NCBI GenBank assembly: GCA_030644725.1 | Contig: CP130629.1 | Location: 2,867,501 to 2,931,500, forward strand | Length of the DNA: 64,000 nt | Direction: 5' to 3' | Source of the DNA: Candidatus Electrothrix communis | GTDB taxonomy: Bacteria; Desulfobacterota; Desulfobulbia; Desulfobulbales; Desulfobulbaceae | Shown here: positions 15,688-22,598 of the stretch, piece after piece | Layout of the letters: each line of letters begins with the position of its first letter | Position numbering within the stretch: position 1 is the first letter of the stretch | Notes under the pieces: model-generated | Told to the model about the DNA's origin: nothing | The model's input: the letters and a program-made list of their open reading frames with translations, nothing else | Database searches by the model: none | Program-made: the position numbers and the translations under genes

Positions 15688-17670
15688 TCAGCGATATTCC
15701 CGCTGCAACCGCTCCAACAAATTCCCCACATCAATATTCGGCGTATTCACCGGCCCCCAATCCAGCGTCGTATTCACCCTGTGATCCGTATCAATAACAT
15801 TGCGCAGGCGTTGCTCCTGCTCATACCACCATCTCTTGGACGAGCCGTCGGGGCAGGATGCCGTGTCAACATCCCCCCAACGCAGTTCTGGGCAGTGGTA
15901 GGGATCAAAAGAGAGCAGAAAAAGCCGCTCCATAATATCCCCCAGGGTCAGGGTGATTGTCTTCCCGGATGAATCACCATATCCTATCCGGATACTGTCG
16001 GCACTCTCCTGCCAGATGCTGCTGAAGCGGCTGATCAGCTCAGCAGCCGTCCCGGTAAAGGCATAGGGATGATCCCCTTGGGCAACCGCGCTGACACTGT
16101 CTTTAATCAGATTGAACATCTCCCGTACCTGCGCCCGCAGACGGGCATCTCTCCCCGGTGTTGAATAGGCTTCCCAATCCCCTTCTGTCCCGTAGATATT
16201 ATAGGGCAGACTCGACGGATGGGTTTTCTTATGGATATTATGAGACACCGCCGCTTCAATCGATGCCACCCGATCCTGAAGGGCCTGATCCAGGGCGGTC
16301 AACTGCTGCTGCATTTCCTTGATCGGATCCACCTTACCGCTACCGGTAGCCAACATCCGCTTAACCCATTGATGATAATCAAGCGCAAGCCCGTCAACCT
16401 CATAGCTGTCCTGACACTGACTTTTTTCCGCGTCAAAGAAAAGGGAATTCGAGTTATTGGTCAACGTGAAGCTGCCACTGCTGCTCACCTCCTGATGACG
16501 CCAGCGCCGAAACCCGCCCCCCTGCTTACAGGAACCCCGGGAGAGATAGGAGCCAAAACGTTTTTCCGTCAGGCTGTTATCAGGATGGGCATCAACAAAC
16601 CAGACCGTGCCGTCATCATCCACCCGGGAAACCACCAGGACATGGCCGTTGGCATCGTAATACACCGTACCCGGCACAATGCTTTCCCGATTGACCTGAC
16701 AGAGAAAGGTGTCGGTCTTTTCCGTGGTCCAGAAGAAACGGAAAAAGCCGCTGTGGACGCTGTTGGAAATCGTCCCGGCTAAGGAGGAAAAACTGGAATA
16801 GTTAAGAAAGGATCGACGGCTGCCGGGTTGGTTGTTATTGCTGTAGCGACTGCCGGAGATGGTCACGTTAAAAGAAAAAGGCAATTTTTTCTTATAACTG
16901 AAATAGGCCCGCAGGAGATAAGGAAGATCGGCGCAATCGCTGAAAATACTGTTGGTGCGGTCTTCATCCGAGTAGAGGGTGTTGCCGTCCGGGTTGCGCA
17001 GGCAGGCTGCCAAGGATCCTTTTTTATCAGCAAAAAGCTGTTCCACCCAGCGAGAAAAATCGGCTTCGTCGCTGTCATTCCATTGATAGTAGGCGGTCCA
17101 GGCCGCATCGGCACCGCCCACGTTGATCTCCGCATTCGGATCAACAGGTTCCCCGCTCCCTCCAGGGTTTTCCGTGTTAGGCATCTCGATGGCTGTTATC
17201 AGTTCCCCCCAGGTTCGCCCGCCCACATCAATCCTGCCGTCGGGCCGGGAAAGAAACGGCTGCTGGAAATCCTTGATGGTTTGGATAAGCTCGGCAGAAC
17301 ATTGATCACTCACCGTCAGCGGCGTAGGCAAAAAATTATTGAATAAGCCGTAAACGATGCGTACATCGCTCGGACGATTCTGCCCGCCCTGCCCCACGGA
17401 ACCGCTGATTCCCGTCTCAGTCTCAGGGGTCTCGGCAGCAGCAGTGAGCTTTCCCCATGTTCTGCCTCCGACATCAATCCTGCCGTCAGGACGGGACAGA
17501 AAATCCGACTGAAAATCCCTGATCGCCGCAATCAACTCCTCGGAAACCTGATCGCTGATTGCCAACGGGTTGCTGAGAATTTTATTGAACAAGGCATACA
17601 CGGTACGCACATCTTCAGGACGATTCTGTCCTCCTGAATCACCTACTGAGCCGCTGATAGCATTCGGCAT
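15688..17670 (-). CDS. Two-repeat cell-wall-binding-like protein with candidate Cys hydrolase domain
   Basis: A 660-residue protein. Two copies of a ~75-residue module (about 5-80 and 88-162), each beginning SGSVG and ending SRPDGRIDVGGRTW, resemble peptidoglycan-binding repeats. A linker follows, then a domain with a candidate papain/NlpC-like triad: Cys246 in FSDCADLPYLLRAY, His343 in DANGHVLVV and Asp360 in WFVDAHPD. The C-terminal 250 residues are helical and unrecognised. There is no signal peptide: the first module begins at residue 5. Start ATG 17670 has a consensus AAAGGAGG. The same module pair heads the NodB protein at 18191-19267. Confidence 0.75.
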   Translation of the reverse strand: MPNAISGSVGDSGGQNRPEDVRTVYALFNKILSNPLAISDQVSEELIAAIRDFQSDFLSRPDGRIDVGGRTWGKLTAAAETPETETGISGSVGQGGQNRPSDVRIVYGLFNNFLPTPLTVSDQCSAELIQTIKDFQQPFLSRPDGRIDVGGRTWGELITAIEMPNTENPGGSGEPVDPNAEINVGGADAAWTAYYQWNDSDEADFSRWVEQLFADKKGSLAACLRNPDGNTLYSDEDRTNSIFSDCADLPYLLRAYFSYKKKLPFSFNVTISGSRYSNNNQPGSRRSFLNYSSFSSLAGTISNSVHSGFFRFFWTTEKTDTFLCQVNRESIVPGTVYYDANGHVLVVSRVDDDGTVWFVDAHPDNSLTEKRFGSYLSRGSCKQGGGFRRWRHQEVSSSGSFTLTNNSNSLFFDAEKSQCQDSYEVDGLALDYHQWVKRMLATGSGKVDPIKEMQQQLTALDQALQDRVASIEAAVSHNIHKKTHPSSLPYNIYGTEGDWEAYSTPGRDARLRAQVREMFNLIKDSVSAVAQGDHPYAFTGTAAELISRFSSIWQESADSIRIGYGDSSGKTITLTLGDIMERLFLLSFDPYHCPELRWGDVDTASCPDGSSKRWWYEQEQRLRNVIDTDHRVNTTLDWGPVNTPNIDVGNLLERLQREYR

Positions 17671-17808
17671 TGTTGCTCCTCCTTTTCTTTTTTATACCTG
17701 TTACCATGAAAGGCGAATACAGGGATTCAAAGGGCAAACACAGTCCCCTACAGCACGCGGGGAAAATACGGCAATACAAAACTTTACCGTAAGGTGTTAC
17801 ACCAAGGA

Positions 17809-18204
17809 TCATTCACCAATCTGGCCCAACTGAAATGTTTGCACCCTTTTTGTCACCCTTCCCTGCTCATCCTGGTAATCGATAATCAGGCCAACCGGGA
17901 TCTGCATCTCTTTTTTCCCGTGCAGGACAGTCTGCTGGCGATCCGAGGAATAATAATACTGACCCGCAAGGGGCGAATAATCCGCTTCGCCGAGCAGTTC
18001 TTCCACCTCGGTTTGTGCCATACCCTTGCGCAGATGCCTGGAGATCACCGCAAGGCTGGCATAATCCCGGTGCGCCTTATACCCACGGCTCGCCGATTCC
18101 AGCTCCTGAGCCTGGGTGTTACAGCCGACCAGCAACAGGAAAACGATAAACAACAGGAAACGCTGCTGCTGCCTGAACAGCCTGCCTGTCTTAGGGTTTG
18201 GCAA
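17809..18204 (-). CDS. Small lipoprotein, BamE/SmpA-like
   Basis: A 131-residue lipoprotein: hydrophobic signal (RFLLFIVFLLLVGC) with acylated Cys at about residue 28, then a short helix-turn (ISRHLRKGMAQTEVEELLGEADY) typical of BamE/SmpA-type folds, where a small alpha/beta domain follows a K/G-M-x-x-x-E-V turn, and beta strands (QYYYSSDRQ, VGLIIDYQDEQGRVTK). The start is TTG 18204, within the 3' end of the NodB gene (14-bp overlap), so the two are translationally coupled. Its tight linkage to a cell-wall enzyme suggests a partner or protective role, which is inference. Confidence 0.65.
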   Translation of the reverse strand: MPNPKTGRLFRQQQRFLLFIVFLLLVGCNTQAQELESASRGYKAHRDYASLAVISRHLRKGMAQTEVEELLGEADYSPLAGQYYYSSDRQQTVLHGKKEMQIPVGLIIDYQDEQGRVTKRVQTFQLGQIGE

Positions 18205-19267
18205 AGGAAAACCCCCATTGCTTAAGCTGCTCGATAAATCCCCCCAGGTCCTCAGCAGTATCTTTCAGTACATGCATGAGCACGTTGAATTCGGTTCTGC
18301 TTTGGCTTCTCTGAAATTGCTGCTCAATCATGGCCCGTTTACTCGGCCCCAGCCCCTTGGGCGATTTCCAGTCCTCGGTATCAATATCCCAGTTCTGAAT
18401 GGTCAGGGAAAGTTCGTTTGCCACGGCAACAAGCTCCCAATCGTATGGTCGCCAGCCGCCTGCACCGTAGGGTGGACGAATCCTGGTCGGCGTGACTCCG
18501 GCAGCCTTTCTGATGCTTTCCTGGGTCTTTTCCAATTCCTTCCGCACCGCCGATCTGGACAGCCCGACCAAGTTCGGATGGGTGTAGGAATGATTCTGCA
18601 CCCTATGGCCCCGGTCCGCGATTTCTTTCACCGCCGACGGGGAGCTGTCCACTTCCTGTCCTAAAACGTAAAATTCCGCCTTGATGCCATATCGATCCAG
18701 CGTGTCCAGAATGGAATGCAGCGAGCCGGTCGGAGCCGGGCCGTCGTCAAAGGAAAGCAGTACGGCTTTGCCGGTTCCTCCTGCCGGAGTTGTCAACCTT
18801 CTCCAGGTTCGGCCGCCCACATCAATTCTACCGTCAGGGCGAGACATAAAGGTCTTCTGCACATCCTTGATCGCCTGAATCAGCTCATCCGTGCATTGAT
18901 CGCTCACCTCCAAAGGGCGCGACAGGATTTCATTGAACAGGGAATAGACCACCCGCACATCCTGCGGACGATTCTGACCGCCCTGCCCCACGGAACCGGA
19001 GATTTCTTCCATTCCTTCTCTCTCCGGCCTTTCAGCCGCCGCTGTGAGTTCCCGCCAGGTTCTGCCGCCCACATCTATCCTGCCGTCTGGGCGAGAGAGA
19101 AAGCCCTGCTGAAAATCCCGAATCGCCTGAAGCAGCGCATCTGTGACCTGATCGCTGACCGGCAGCGGCGTGGATAAAATTTTGTTGAACAAAACATAAA
19201 CTACCTGGACATCGTCGGAACGGTTCCTGCCGTTTTCACCGACTGAACCGGTAAGAGAGTTTGCCAT
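18191..19267 (-). CDS. Two-repeat protein fused to NodB polysaccharide deacetylase
   Basis: A 358-residue protein with the same two ~75-residue modules as 15688-17670 (about 2-160; each closing RPDGRIDVGGRTW), followed by a NodB domain (about 165-350): VLLSFDDGPAPTG (catalytic and metal Asp pair), NHSYTHPNL (metal His), RPPYGAGGWR, and a C-terminal LMHVLKDTAEDL. NodB enzymes de-N-acetylate peptidoglycan or other N-acetyl-glycans. No signal peptide is present. Start is ATG 19267, preceded by AGGTGG; the upstream ATG at 19279 has no ribosome site. It overlaps the following lipoprotein gene. Confidence 0.85.
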   Translation of the reverse strand: MANSLTGSVGENGRNRSDDVQVVYVLFNKILSTPLPVSDQVTDALLQAIRDFQQGFLSRPDGRIDVGGRTWRELTAAAERPEREGMEEISGSVGQGGQNRPQDVRVVYSLFNEILSRPLEVSDQCTDELIQAIKDVQKTFMSRPDGRIDVGGRTWRRLTTPAGGTGKAVLLSFDDGPAPTGSLHSILDTLDRYGIKAEFYVLGQEVDSSPSAVKEIADRGHRVQNHSYTHPNLVGLSRSAVRKELEKTQESIRKAAGVTPTRIRPPYGAGGWRPYDWELVAVANELSLTIQNWDIDTEDWKSPKGLGPSKRAMIEQQFQRSQSRTEFNVLMHVLKDTAEDLGGFIEQLKQWGFSFAKP

Positions 19268-19395: not shown

Positions 19396-20511
19396 CTATA
19401 AATTCTGATCTCCCTTTCTCAACGACTTCGACGGCATTCTACCACCTATGATAAGCCGAAGAAATCCAGGGGTAATCATATTCAAGACGCTGAAGGCCGC
19501 AACTGAAACCGAGACAACAAAAACGGGAATCAAAAAATACAAGGATAAGACGAAGACATCACTGCTTGGCTGTAAAAAATAATAGGCCGTTTTGCGCGTC
19601 ATGGTGAGTAACGGCTCATGGACGGCAAAAACAAAAAAACTCCAACCTGCTGCCCGGAGCAGGAAGGATTTCATCTTCGGCATCTCCACCATAAATTTTG
19701 TGCCGTAAAGGGCAGAGGCCAAGCCCAATAACAGGCCGATTCGATGGATATGCCCGTGGAACGTGCTGCCCATCAAAAGTAAATCTGCTGTCAGCACAGC
19801 GAGATAAAGAGGAAGAACCCACTTCCCGACATGATCGATTATAAAAATATCCCTTTGCAAAACAGCGAGAAACGCGCCCGCATAAAAAAAGAAGCAAGCT
19901 GTTGCACAGGGGATGTTCCACGGCCAAAACGGGTAAAACCAACATAGAAAGAGGGTGAGCAGAGCAAACCTCGGGAGAAACTTCAGGAAGAACTGGATAA
20001 GCGGGACCAGCAAAATCATAACCATCAGATCTCGGATAAACCAAAACTGATATGCCACCGGGAACCGGTCGATCCCGAAAAGAGCGTTGAGATAATCGTA
20101 CAGAGTATACGCGGATATTGCTCCACCTTGCTCAGGAAAATAGCTGTTCAGCGCCGGTAAGGATTGGGCTATGGCCAGCAACACCAGGGTGAGACCGTTC
20201 CAGAAGAGAAACGGAAGAACAAGAGATCGCAGACGAGTGGCCAGCTTGTTGCCATACTGACGCCACGACCATTGCATTCCAAGGAAAAACAGATACCCTG
20301 ATAACAAAAAAAATAAGGGTACAGCAACGCGGGCGAGATGCTGAGAAATGATGTCCCTGATAAGGCCGGACAACCAATGTGATTCAGCCACACCCTGGGT
20401 TTGGCCCGAGAAATCAACGGTTGCCGCATACCCGTGAATAAAAACAACGCCTATAATCAGAGGAAAACGTAAGCAGGCTATTCGCTCGGAAGATGACTGA
20501 GCCAATTTCAT
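19396..20511 (-). CDS. Acyltransferase-3 family membrane O-acyltransferase
   Basis: A 371-residue protein with about 10 TM helices and the acyltransferase-3 signature: RIACLRFPLIIGVVFIHGY near the N-terminus (catalytic-type histidine) and RVAVPLFFLLSGYLFF. Such proteins move acyl groups to sugars of lipopolysaccharide or capsule on the periplasmic side. The start overlaps the stop of the next upstream gene (20508-22598) by 4 bp. It is the last gene of the polysaccharide region. Confidence 0.88.
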   Translation of the reverse strand: MKLAQSSSERIACLRFPLIIGVVFIHGYAATVDFSGQTQGVAESHWLSGLIRDIISQHLARVAVPLFFLLSGYLFFLGMQWSWRQYGNKLATRLRSLVLPFLFWNGLTLVLLAIAQSLPALNSYFPEQGGAISAYTLYDYLNALFGIDRFPVAYQFWFIRDLMVMILLVPLIQFFLKFLPRFALLTLFLCWFYPFWPWNIPCATACFFFYAGAFLAVLQRDIFIIDHVGKWVLPLYLAVLTADLLLMGSTFHGHIHRIGLLLGLASALYGTKFMVEMPKMKSFLLRAAGWSFFVFAVHEPLLTMTRKTAYYFLQPSSDVFVLSLYFLIPVFVVSVSVAAFSVLNMITPGFLRLIIGGRMPSKSLRKGDQNL

Positions 20512-22598
20512 GGAGCGACGTGATCAAGGAGAAACACATTTAAATCTTTACCGATTAACCCGCCAGCATAATCTGAAATATGGTCAGAATAACTGTACAA
20601 GAGCCGACCGTCTTTATAGGGATCACAGACGCCGCGTTCCAGATCACACATATATTTGGTCGTATCAAATATTTTTATAGCTTCAGGGGAGCCAGAGGCC
20701 ACCTCTTGCAATAGTTCTCGGTATATTTTTGAAAGGGCAATATGCTTATCAAGCGGCAGATGGCATTGTTGATTTGTTTTTTGCGCCAAAATATCATTCA
20801 AAAAAGGCAGTGCTGTTTTCCTGCCGAGGCAATCCCTCGGATCAGGCAGCGTCGGATTATCAACAAGAAGAACCACTTTTTTCCCTGCCGCTATCAGTTT
20901 ATCCGTTGTTGCCCTGAGAGCCTCCACGGCCAAGGGATATAATTTTGTCCCCTTCTCAGGCAGATCCTCAAGAAGCAGACGAGGCTTGAGATGAAATATC
21001 GCCCGTGCCGCAGTAACCAGAACAACAGTCTCGATACTCGGATTTTCCGCAATGGCCTTCACTGCCATACGAGCCAACTTTTGGTAATCTTTATAGACAA
21101 TGCTTTCAGAGAGCAAGGGAACAGGCGCACCGTTTGCTCCGTTTCCCCCGATGAACAACCATCGCCCGTCTTTACCTGATGTTCGTATCAGGCCCTGATA
21201 CAGGGAGGCTGCTTTACTATCGCCAAGCAGGGCAAACCGAGACGGTTGCCGGACATCCTGTACACAAAAGGCAAAAAGCGCTTTGTCTTCCTGAGAGGTT
21301 ATTCCGCATTCGCGGGTTACGAGTTTTTCCGAAATTCCCCCGCCCCAGCCAGTCCCCTTATTCGGGTTTGTCTGCACAACATGACGAAGGGGTATGCCGT
21401 CTTGTGTAGAGATAAAGACACCAAGAACGGCGACAGCACACATGGTGAGTACCAATACAATCGTTTTTCCCCTCCTGTGCCCGCCGAAACGAAGAGGACG
21501 TTCGATAAATTTATAGGTCAACCAGGCAAGGAGAACAGAGAGGCTAACGGCCGTGATCCGTGTCCATCGTGATGGTGTTTCGCAATGGATAATGCGAGCA
21601 AAGGACAGGAGCGGCCAATGCCATAAATACAGAGGATAGCTGATCAAGCCAAACCATACCAGGAGACGATGTGACAGAACTCTGCGGTTGAACCAAGCCT
21701 GCGGGCCTGCCGCAATGATACAGACAGCCCCTGTCACAGGGACTAAGGCCCTCCATCCGGGAAAAGGCATTTCTTGATTAATGGCCATCAGGCCAGCAAC
21801 CAGCAGAACAGCTCCGGTGAACGATTGCACATTGTGTAATAGAGAAACAGCCGCAGCTGCCCCGGCTGAGGCAGGACTTTTTCCAGAAAAAACTCTTCTT
21901 GCTGCGCTGTCAATCTTTGCTCTTAATCCGACGAAAAGATTTTGTGGATAAAGGCGGATGTAGGCCAAAATTGCCCCTGCCAGCAATTCCCAAAAACGGG
22001 TCTGAGGTAAGTAAAAGGCTGCGGCAGCATCATCCTGCATTTCCCACATATTCAAGGCAAAGGAAAGAACTGCGAGCCCAATAATCAGGAGAAAGACATG
22101 CTGACGCCGCTTCCAGGCAAACCAAAGCAGCAGAGGCCAAACGATGTAAAACTGCTCCTCAATACCCAGCGACCAGAGATGCAAGAACGGTTTTGTATGG
22201 CTGGCCGTATCAAAATACCCGCTTTCCCGCCAGAAGAGAATATTTGCGACAAAGCCTGCTCCTCCGATGATATGTTTTCCCAGCTCGGCAAATTCATCAG
22301 CAAGTAACGAGAACCACCCAACAGCAAAAACGGATATCAATACCAACAGCAAGGCCGGAAAGATACGCCTGATACGGCGGCTGTAGAATTCCAAAAAACT
22401 GAAACGCTTATGTTCCAGGTTTTCAAAAATAATTGTCGAGATAAGAAAACCTGAAATAACAAAAAAGATATCAACGCCAAGAAACCCTCCCGGCATTCGG
22501 GACGGCGCAGCATGAAAAATAACAACCGCCAAAACAGCTATTGCACGTAATCCGTCAATGTCAGGACGATATTTTGGGTGGCTTAACCCGGTCTTCAT
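20508..22598 (-). CDS. OafA-type acyltransferase with C-terminal SGNH domain
   Basis: A 696-residue protein. The N-terminal half (about 1-370) is an acyltransferase-3 membrane domain (YRPDIDGLRAIAVLAVVIFHA, FFVISGFLIS, LHLWSLGIEEQFYIVWP). The C-terminal half (about 430-690) is a soluble SGNH domain (LLGDSKAASLYQG as block I with Gly-Asp-Ser, and YSDHISDYAG as the block with Asp/His). This architecture acetylates O-antigen or capsule sugars, with the SGNH part completing transfer in the periplasm. It is coupled to the downstream acyltransferase gene by an ATGA overlap. Confidence 0.92.
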   Translation of the reverse strand: MKTGLSHPKYRPDIDGLRAIAVLAVVIFHAAPSRMPGGFLGVDIFFVISGFLISTIIFENLEHKRFSFLEFYSRRIRRIFPALLLVLISVFAVGWFSLLADEFAELGKHIIGGAGFVANILFWRESGYFDTASHTKPFLHLWSLGIEEQFYIVWPLLLWFAWKRRQHVFLLIIGLAVLSFALNMWEMQDDAAAAFYLPQTRFWELLAGAILAYIRLYPQNLFVGLRAKIDSAARRVFSGKSPASAGAAAAVSLLHNVQSFTGAVLLVAGLMAINQEMPFPGWRALVPVTGAVCIIAAGPQAWFNRRVLSHRLLVWFGLISYPLYLWHWPLLSFARIIHCETPSRWTRITAVSLSVLLAWLTYKFIERPLRFGGHRRGKTIVLVLTMCAVAVLGVFISTQDGIPLRHVVQTNPNKGTGWGGGISEKLVTRECGITSQEDKALFAFCVQDVRQPSRFALLGDSKAASLYQGLIRTSGKDGRWLFIGGNGANGAPVPLLSESIVYKDYQKLARMAVKAIAENPSIETVVLVTAARAIFHLKPRLLLEDLPEKGTKLYPLAVEALRATTDKLIAAGKKVVLLVDNPTLPDPRDCLGRKTALPFLNDILAQKTNQQCHLPLDKHIALSKIYRELLQEVASGSPEAIKIFDTTKYMCDLERGVCDPYKDGRLLYSYSDHISDYAGGLIGKDLNVFLLDHVAP

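Follow-up and report, generated by a model that had tools for sequence, protein, structure and literature searches.

Why should two proteins with the look of cell-wall enzymes be made without any Sec signal, and why should a lipoprotein gene be coupled to one of them? This question was raised by an operon in the window, by which we mean the whole stretch of 64,000 nucleotides analysed here, taken from a cable bacterium, Candidatus Electrothrix-like, whose genome is a single contig of 4.85 Mb. On the minus strand, the genes follow one another in the order NodB protein, lipoprotein and 660-aa protein, with the features given below (basis in brackets).

18191..19267, minus strand: effector candidate 1, with two N-terminal modules and a CE4/NodB polysaccharide deacetylase domain, no signal peptide, 358 aa (Pfam, CE4 motifs, start analysis)
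19041..19267, minus strand: module 1 of the NodB protein (module comparison)
18789..19012, minus strand: module 2 of the NodB protein (module comparison)
18200..18775, minus strand: CE4/NodB catalytic domain (Pfam and conserved motifs)
17809..18204, minus strand: lipoprotein of 131 aa, lipobox LLLVGC, TTG start, candidate immunity protein (open reading frame, weak BamE and BtiO matches)
15688..17670, minus strand: effector candidate 2, with two N-terminal modules, a candidate CHAP/papain-like domain and a conserved C-terminal region of about 230 aa (open reading frame, Pfam, orthologues)
17436..17670, minus strand: module 1 of the 660-aa protein (module comparison)
17193..17424, minus strand: module 2 of the 660-aa protein (module comparison)
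16393..17115, minus strand: candidate CHAP/papain-like domain of the 660-aa protein (invariant residues in 6 orthologues; CHAP sub-threshold in 5 of 6)
16933-16935, 16642-16644 and 16591-16593, minus strand: codons of C246, H343 and D360 of the 660-aa protein

Next to the operon, where a long run of minus-strand genes has its edge, lie two neighbouring acyltransferase-3 genes (19396-22598), one of them an SGNH fusion.

The lack of a Sec signal on either enzyme, on which the preliminary description had built its case, was borne out by three lines of evidence. The in-frame sequence ahead of the starts is short, with only 7 codons for the 660-aa gene and 35 for the NodB gene, and in neither case strongly hydrophobic; Shine-Dalgarno sites stand directly 5' of MPNAIS and MANSLT, i.e. 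just before the modules; and the orthologues of other cable bacteria share the same start position. For the NodB protein, the open reading frame spans 362 aa (19279-18191, minus strand), with the best start at the ATG at 19267 behind GAGGTGG. A signal peptide arising from a missed start, the main objection to that description, is thus removed for both genes.

Each enzyme begins, as had been proposed, with two modules of about 75 aa resembling PG_binding_1, and the first of these four copies shares 68-70% identity with the other three. Their signature, SVG..G.N...DV..V and PDGRIDVGG.TW, marks a divergent PG_binding_1 type: the window proteins reach 21.5 and 16.7 bits against PF01471 (cut-off 23), which is sub-threshold with an E of 2.7e-4, and the modules of several relatives pass the cut-off. 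A degenerate DNA pattern for RPDGRIDVGG gave 4 matches in the window against 0 expected (100 shuffles). Protein searches of the whole 4.85-Mb genome found these four modules and no others, all in this one operon and far from the T6SS and eCIS loci. The deacetylase assignment proved solid (PF01522, E 6.4e-33, 113.8 bits vs a cut-off of 23.1), the CE4 motifs SFDDGP, NHSYTH, RPPYG, DTEDW and LMHV being all present and conserved in a domain that looks intact. The protein ends with this catalytic domain, and the cell wall is its presumed substrate.

For the 660-aa protein, the suggestion of a Cys/His/Asp hydrolase held in part. Across 6 orthologues, C246, H343 and D360 do not vary, though the same holds for many other residues, and the match to Pfam CHAP (PF05257) stays below the cut-off of 26, at 12 bits for the window protein and with weak matches in 5 of the 6 orthologues (best E 0.032). 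A PDB profile search with the candidate domain returned no meaningful match, profile comparison with the enzyme of locus L048 gave none, and comparison with a Pseudoalteromonas CHAP protein aligned a GHV...NS stretch without significance. The AlphaFold2 model was poor (pLDDT 38) and was set aside, and the 480-aa C-terminal part found no matches among plasmids. We regard the CHAP/papain-like, wall-enzyme identity of this protein as tentative.

The coupling of the lipoprotein gene to the NodB gene was confirmed, with a lipobox (LLLVGC) and a start that overlaps the NodB gene by 14 nt. The protein is possibly BamE-like: Pfam BamE was matched in 2 of 8 sequences (best E 0.03), and BamE ranked first in Foldseek (E 0.37) for a model of low confidence (pLDDT 61), for which neither Foldseek nor VIA-align gave a significant match. 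The sole PDB sequence match of the lipoprotein profile below E 0.05 was BtiO, a T6SS immunity protein of Bacteroides fragilis (E 0.0075-0.011, over one 32-residue stretch), which we take as no more than suggestive. No matches to the lipoprotein were found among plasmids.

The module set was found in nine genomes, namely G000, G001, G002, G004, G005 and G007 of the window's genus and the Electronema-like G016, G026 and G034, which amounts to 9 of the 11 cable-type genomes sampled, and the module is almost absent from other relatives of the order. Among the 57 relatives searched, the lipoprotein occurs, in single copy, in exactly these nine module-bearing cable genomes and in none of the other 48. 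The module set was not found in G006 (only 69% complete). In the cable loci read, the lipoprotein gene stands beside NodB, and in G026 the pair occurs without an adjacent 660-aa homologue, so that the lipoprotein follows NodB. Measured against the window copy, identity is 61-89% for the NodB protein, 64-88% for the 660-aa protein and 46-78% for the lipoprotein, which thus diverges faster. Most cable species have the cassette at a different insertion site, some copies have IS-like, toxin-antitoxin-like or Fic-like neighbours, and by eye no conserved neighbour was evident across the cable loci besides the cassette itself; these mostly differing neighbourhoods suggest a mobile cassette. In Ca. 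Electrothrix gigas (L055, 2434-4438), Fic-like and small genes separate the 660-aa homologue from the lipoprotein-NodB pair. Two Electronema-like loci (L056, 4845-6101; L058, 8875-10131) carry one more module protein, a third, encoded directly upstream of NodB, with a domain of about 330 aa that has invariant DMLTGQWDRFSGGN and RDNGG motifs and appears kinase-like by eye, Pfam matching the module only.

Beyond the cable bacteria, a wider module profile matched 11 of 369 gammaproteobacterial genomes, and the module was also seen on two Pseudoalteromonas plasmids and in MAGs of Bacteroidota, Myxococcales, Acidobacteria and Sphingomonadaceae. The domains attached to it there include M15, M74, M23, GH19, GH24, glucosaminidase, SLT, CHAP and pesticin-like ones, again with no signal peptides. 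We scored, by one rule for module genes and for control genes of the same loci, whether a lipoprotein or Sec-signal gene starts within 60 nt downstream; the signal-peptide rule is simple and home-made, fails on at least one likely case (L107) and includes a doubtful one (L050). Such an exported-protein gene was found at 20 of 32 module loci vs 26 of 330 control genes (8% background; p=1e-12), at 14 of 25 once cable loci were excluded and near-duplicates collapsed (p=1e-8), and at 12 of 15 gammaproteobacterial loci (p=2e-10); at most module loci of Bacteroidota, Myxococcales and Acidobacteria it was absent. The two Pseudoalteromonas plasmid loci lie within polymorphic-toxin/immunity arrays, one with a PAAR gene: in strain THAF3, PAAR, Rhs and SMI1/KNR4 genes are followed downstream by a module-lysozyme gene and a lipoprotein gene that overlap, and in strain CF6-2, the gene of a module-CHAP protein overlaps one with a Sec signal, next to an Rhs, a polymorphic toxin and an immunity-like gene. 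In one gammaproteobacterium (G688), the module was matched seven times, and some of these loci carry duplicated genes for exported partners. At three of its loci (L110, L114, L118), tandem exported-partner genes accompany truncated module copies, as in effector-immunity arrays. A 650-aa signal-less protein of another genome (G154; L076, 7367-9319) carries the module in mid-protein, followed, by eye, by an M23-like and a further domain.

Because the module recurs on signal-less wall enzymes with exported partners, because such genes stand in toxin/immunity arrays, and because lipoprotein and module occur together, we favour, at a probability of about 0.7, the reading that the locus is an antibacterial effector-immunity operon, in which two signal-less probable wall enzymes, predicted to be toxic, are accompanied by a lipoprotein antidote predicted to neutralise them. 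The gene layout, the absence of signals, the conserved linkage and the recurrence of module, wall enzyme and exported neighbour in unrelated bacteria are read directly from the sequences; we infer that the enzymes are toxic, that the lipoprotein inhibits them and that they are delivered from cell to cell. As expected of such pairs, a signal-less enzyme whose substrate lies outside the cytoplasm (presumably the wall for the CE4 enzyme) adjoins a lipoprotein gene conserved with it in nine genomes. In the proposed mechanism, the NodB-type and the tentatively CHAP/papain-like enzymes would be produced in the cytoplasm with no Sec signal; in the periplasm of a target, their PG_binding_1-like modules would then anchor them to the wall, or else the modules may mark them for loading. 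The lipoprotein, placed in the periplasm of the producer itself, would block the NodB enzyme, and possibly the other enzyme as well, upon leakage or kin delivery. Among the points against the effector reading are that a deacetylase is not obvious as a killer, that the wall-enzyme identity of the 660-aa protein is tentative, and that exported neighbours are absent from most module loci of Bacteroidota, Myxococcales and Acidobacteria.

By what route might such enzymes travel? The preliminary description had likened the locus to effector-immunity pairs delivered by contractile or type VI-like systems; the layout part of this likeness stood, given the exported neighbours (at 12/15 gammaproteobacterial loci), the toxin/immunity arrays and the nine-genome co-occurrence, but the delivery part stays conjectural, as the operon at 2.88 Mb lies about 0.6 Mb from its own genome's T6SS near 2.27-2.29 Mb and 4 of the 9 cable carriers appear to have neither T6SS nor eCIS. 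The T6SS cluster itself (L078, G000 C1, 2.270-2.290 Mb) has a VgrG-like gene at its end. No VgrG, PAAR, MIX or adaptor was recognised beside the cable operon, nor any secretion-system gene in the flanking sequence examined at the cable operons. A T6SS was found in four of the nine module-bearing cable genomes (G000, G004, G005 and G007) and not in the other five; with 4 of 9 genomes having it with the module vs 1 of 2 without, T6SS does not track the module among cable bacteria. In module-bearing Gammaproteobacteria, T6SS is enriched (6/11 vs 65/358, p=0.009, uncorrected for kinship or genome completeness), and a match to the sheath protein VipB was absent in 5 of these 11. Neither a T6SS nor an eCIS marker was found in G001, G002, G026 and G034, which are 92-97% complete; where cable carriers truly lack a T6SS, it cannot be the route. 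We consider T6SS a plausible route for part of the module family and, at somewhat short of even odds, the best single guess for delivery across it.

A sub-case of the effector-immunity reading, differing only in route, would have the effectors and their antidotes served by an eCIS or an X-T4SS-like machine instead of a T6SS. The window's own genome (G000 C1) has two eCIS-like contractile-sheath loci, at 1.00-1.012 Mb (L079) and 3.099-3.106 Mb (L080), one with a DUF4157-like gene; Phage_sheath_1 is matched in 7 of 9 distant module genomes, 4 of them above the cut-off; and 68 predicted eCIS toxins carry a peptidoglycan-binding domain (PMC11297309). X-T4SS effectors are likewise signal-less, some with a PGB domain, and one of them, XAC2609, has a lipoprotein antidote (PMC6759196, PMC10933484). 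However, the eCIS tube, found in G000, G005, G007 and G016, is missing in 5 of the 9 module-bearing cable genomes, and 88% of known eCIS toxins are encoded within 10 genes of the eCIS operon (PMC11297309), whereas the cable operon is far from both loci and its proteins have no Pfam match to DUF4157, the other mark of an eCIS toxin. Moreover, the deacetylase has no C-terminal domain beyond NodB. As to the C-terminal XVIPCD domain of X-T4SS effectors, the general Pfam matches of the window proteins up to E 1 include none. On balance, we hold this route to be rather doubtful.

It might also be supposed that the enzymes are envelope-remodelling factors of cable bacteria, which leave the cytoplasm by a non-classical exit and act on the filament's own wall, with the lipoprotein as partner or regulator and not as antidote. 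Their occurrence in 9 of the 11 cable-type genomes and almost no other relatives of the order, their presence in cable genomes without T6SS or eCIS, and the conservation of both enzymes and the lipoprotein would agree with this. Nevertheless, the near-complete G003 (96%), a member of the same genus, has neither module nor lipoprotein, the insertion sites vary between most cable species, some copies adjoining IS-like, toxin-antitoxin-like or Fic-like genes, and the same module stands with exported partners in toxin/immunity arrays of unrelated bacteria, so that we judge such a role unlikely. A bolder proposal keeps a widespread effector class marked by the module and adds, in cable bacteria, an undescribed export route needing neither T6SS nor eCIS, by which wall enzymes would exit cells or pass from one to another, perhaps by way of the periplasm that the filament shares, in a system policing kin or damage; we hold this, too, to be improbable. 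Domesticated phage endolysins or other lysis proteins deserve next to no credit: signal-less hydrolases with a peptidoglycan-binding domain do resemble endolysins, and GH24, GH19 and M15 domains are common in phages, but the module had no match in 50,697 phage records and no confirmed one in IMG/VR, no holin, spanin or prophage genes were recognised nearby, and to our knowledge NodB deacetylases are not lysins.

Returning to the effector-immunity reading, we note that its closest parallels include the periplasmic T6SS pairs (Tse1/Tsi1, Tse3/Tsi3, Tae/Tai), which likewise couple a signal-less wall-active enzyme with an exported protein; the broader module family shows enrichment among T6SS genomes and has a member in a PAAR/Rhs array, whereas the cable operon differs in having no VgrG, PAAR, MIX or adaptor recognised beside it, several carriers without a detectable T6SS, and NodB-type chemistry. 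PG_binding_1 fused to the N-terminus of varied toxins has been described in vgrG loci and reported as limited to Gammaproteobacteria (PMC10673891); here the domain has the same N-terminal place, but in orphan cassettes that also occur in Desulfobacterota, Bacteroidota, Myxococcales and Acidobacteria MAGs. An experimental precedent is given by XAC2609, a signal-less lysozyme-like X-T4SS effector against which the lipoprotein XAC2610 protects from self-intoxication (PMC10933484), an arrangement matching our signal-less wall effector and lipoprotein immunity candidate, except that no XVIPCD is recognised here and the NodB protein stops at its catalytic domain. For the chemistry, a PgdA-like, CE4-type deacetylase has been proposed as a candidate T6SS effector in Salmonella SPI-21 (PMC13304343), although it is linked to a T6SS island and the passage on it describes no module or lipoprotein pairing. 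In view of these precedents (PMC10673891, PMC13304343, PMC10933484), the kind is already known, that is, effector-immunity operons, PG_binding_1-fused toxins, a candidate deacetylase effector and a lipoprotein antidote; what is new is the orphan cassette defined by its module, together with the pairing of a deacetylase and a lipoprotein and the spread of this pairing among cable bacteria, for which the literature searched gave no report of such putative weapons.

With this, an odd pair of signal-less enzymes becomes a testable, putative family of antibacterial effector-immunity pairs that can be recognised by the N-terminal module. The use of a deacetylase as a toxin, and the carriers without a known injection machine, stand out as the questions it raises, and the module may prove useful for finding orphan effectors and their antidotes in other genomes.
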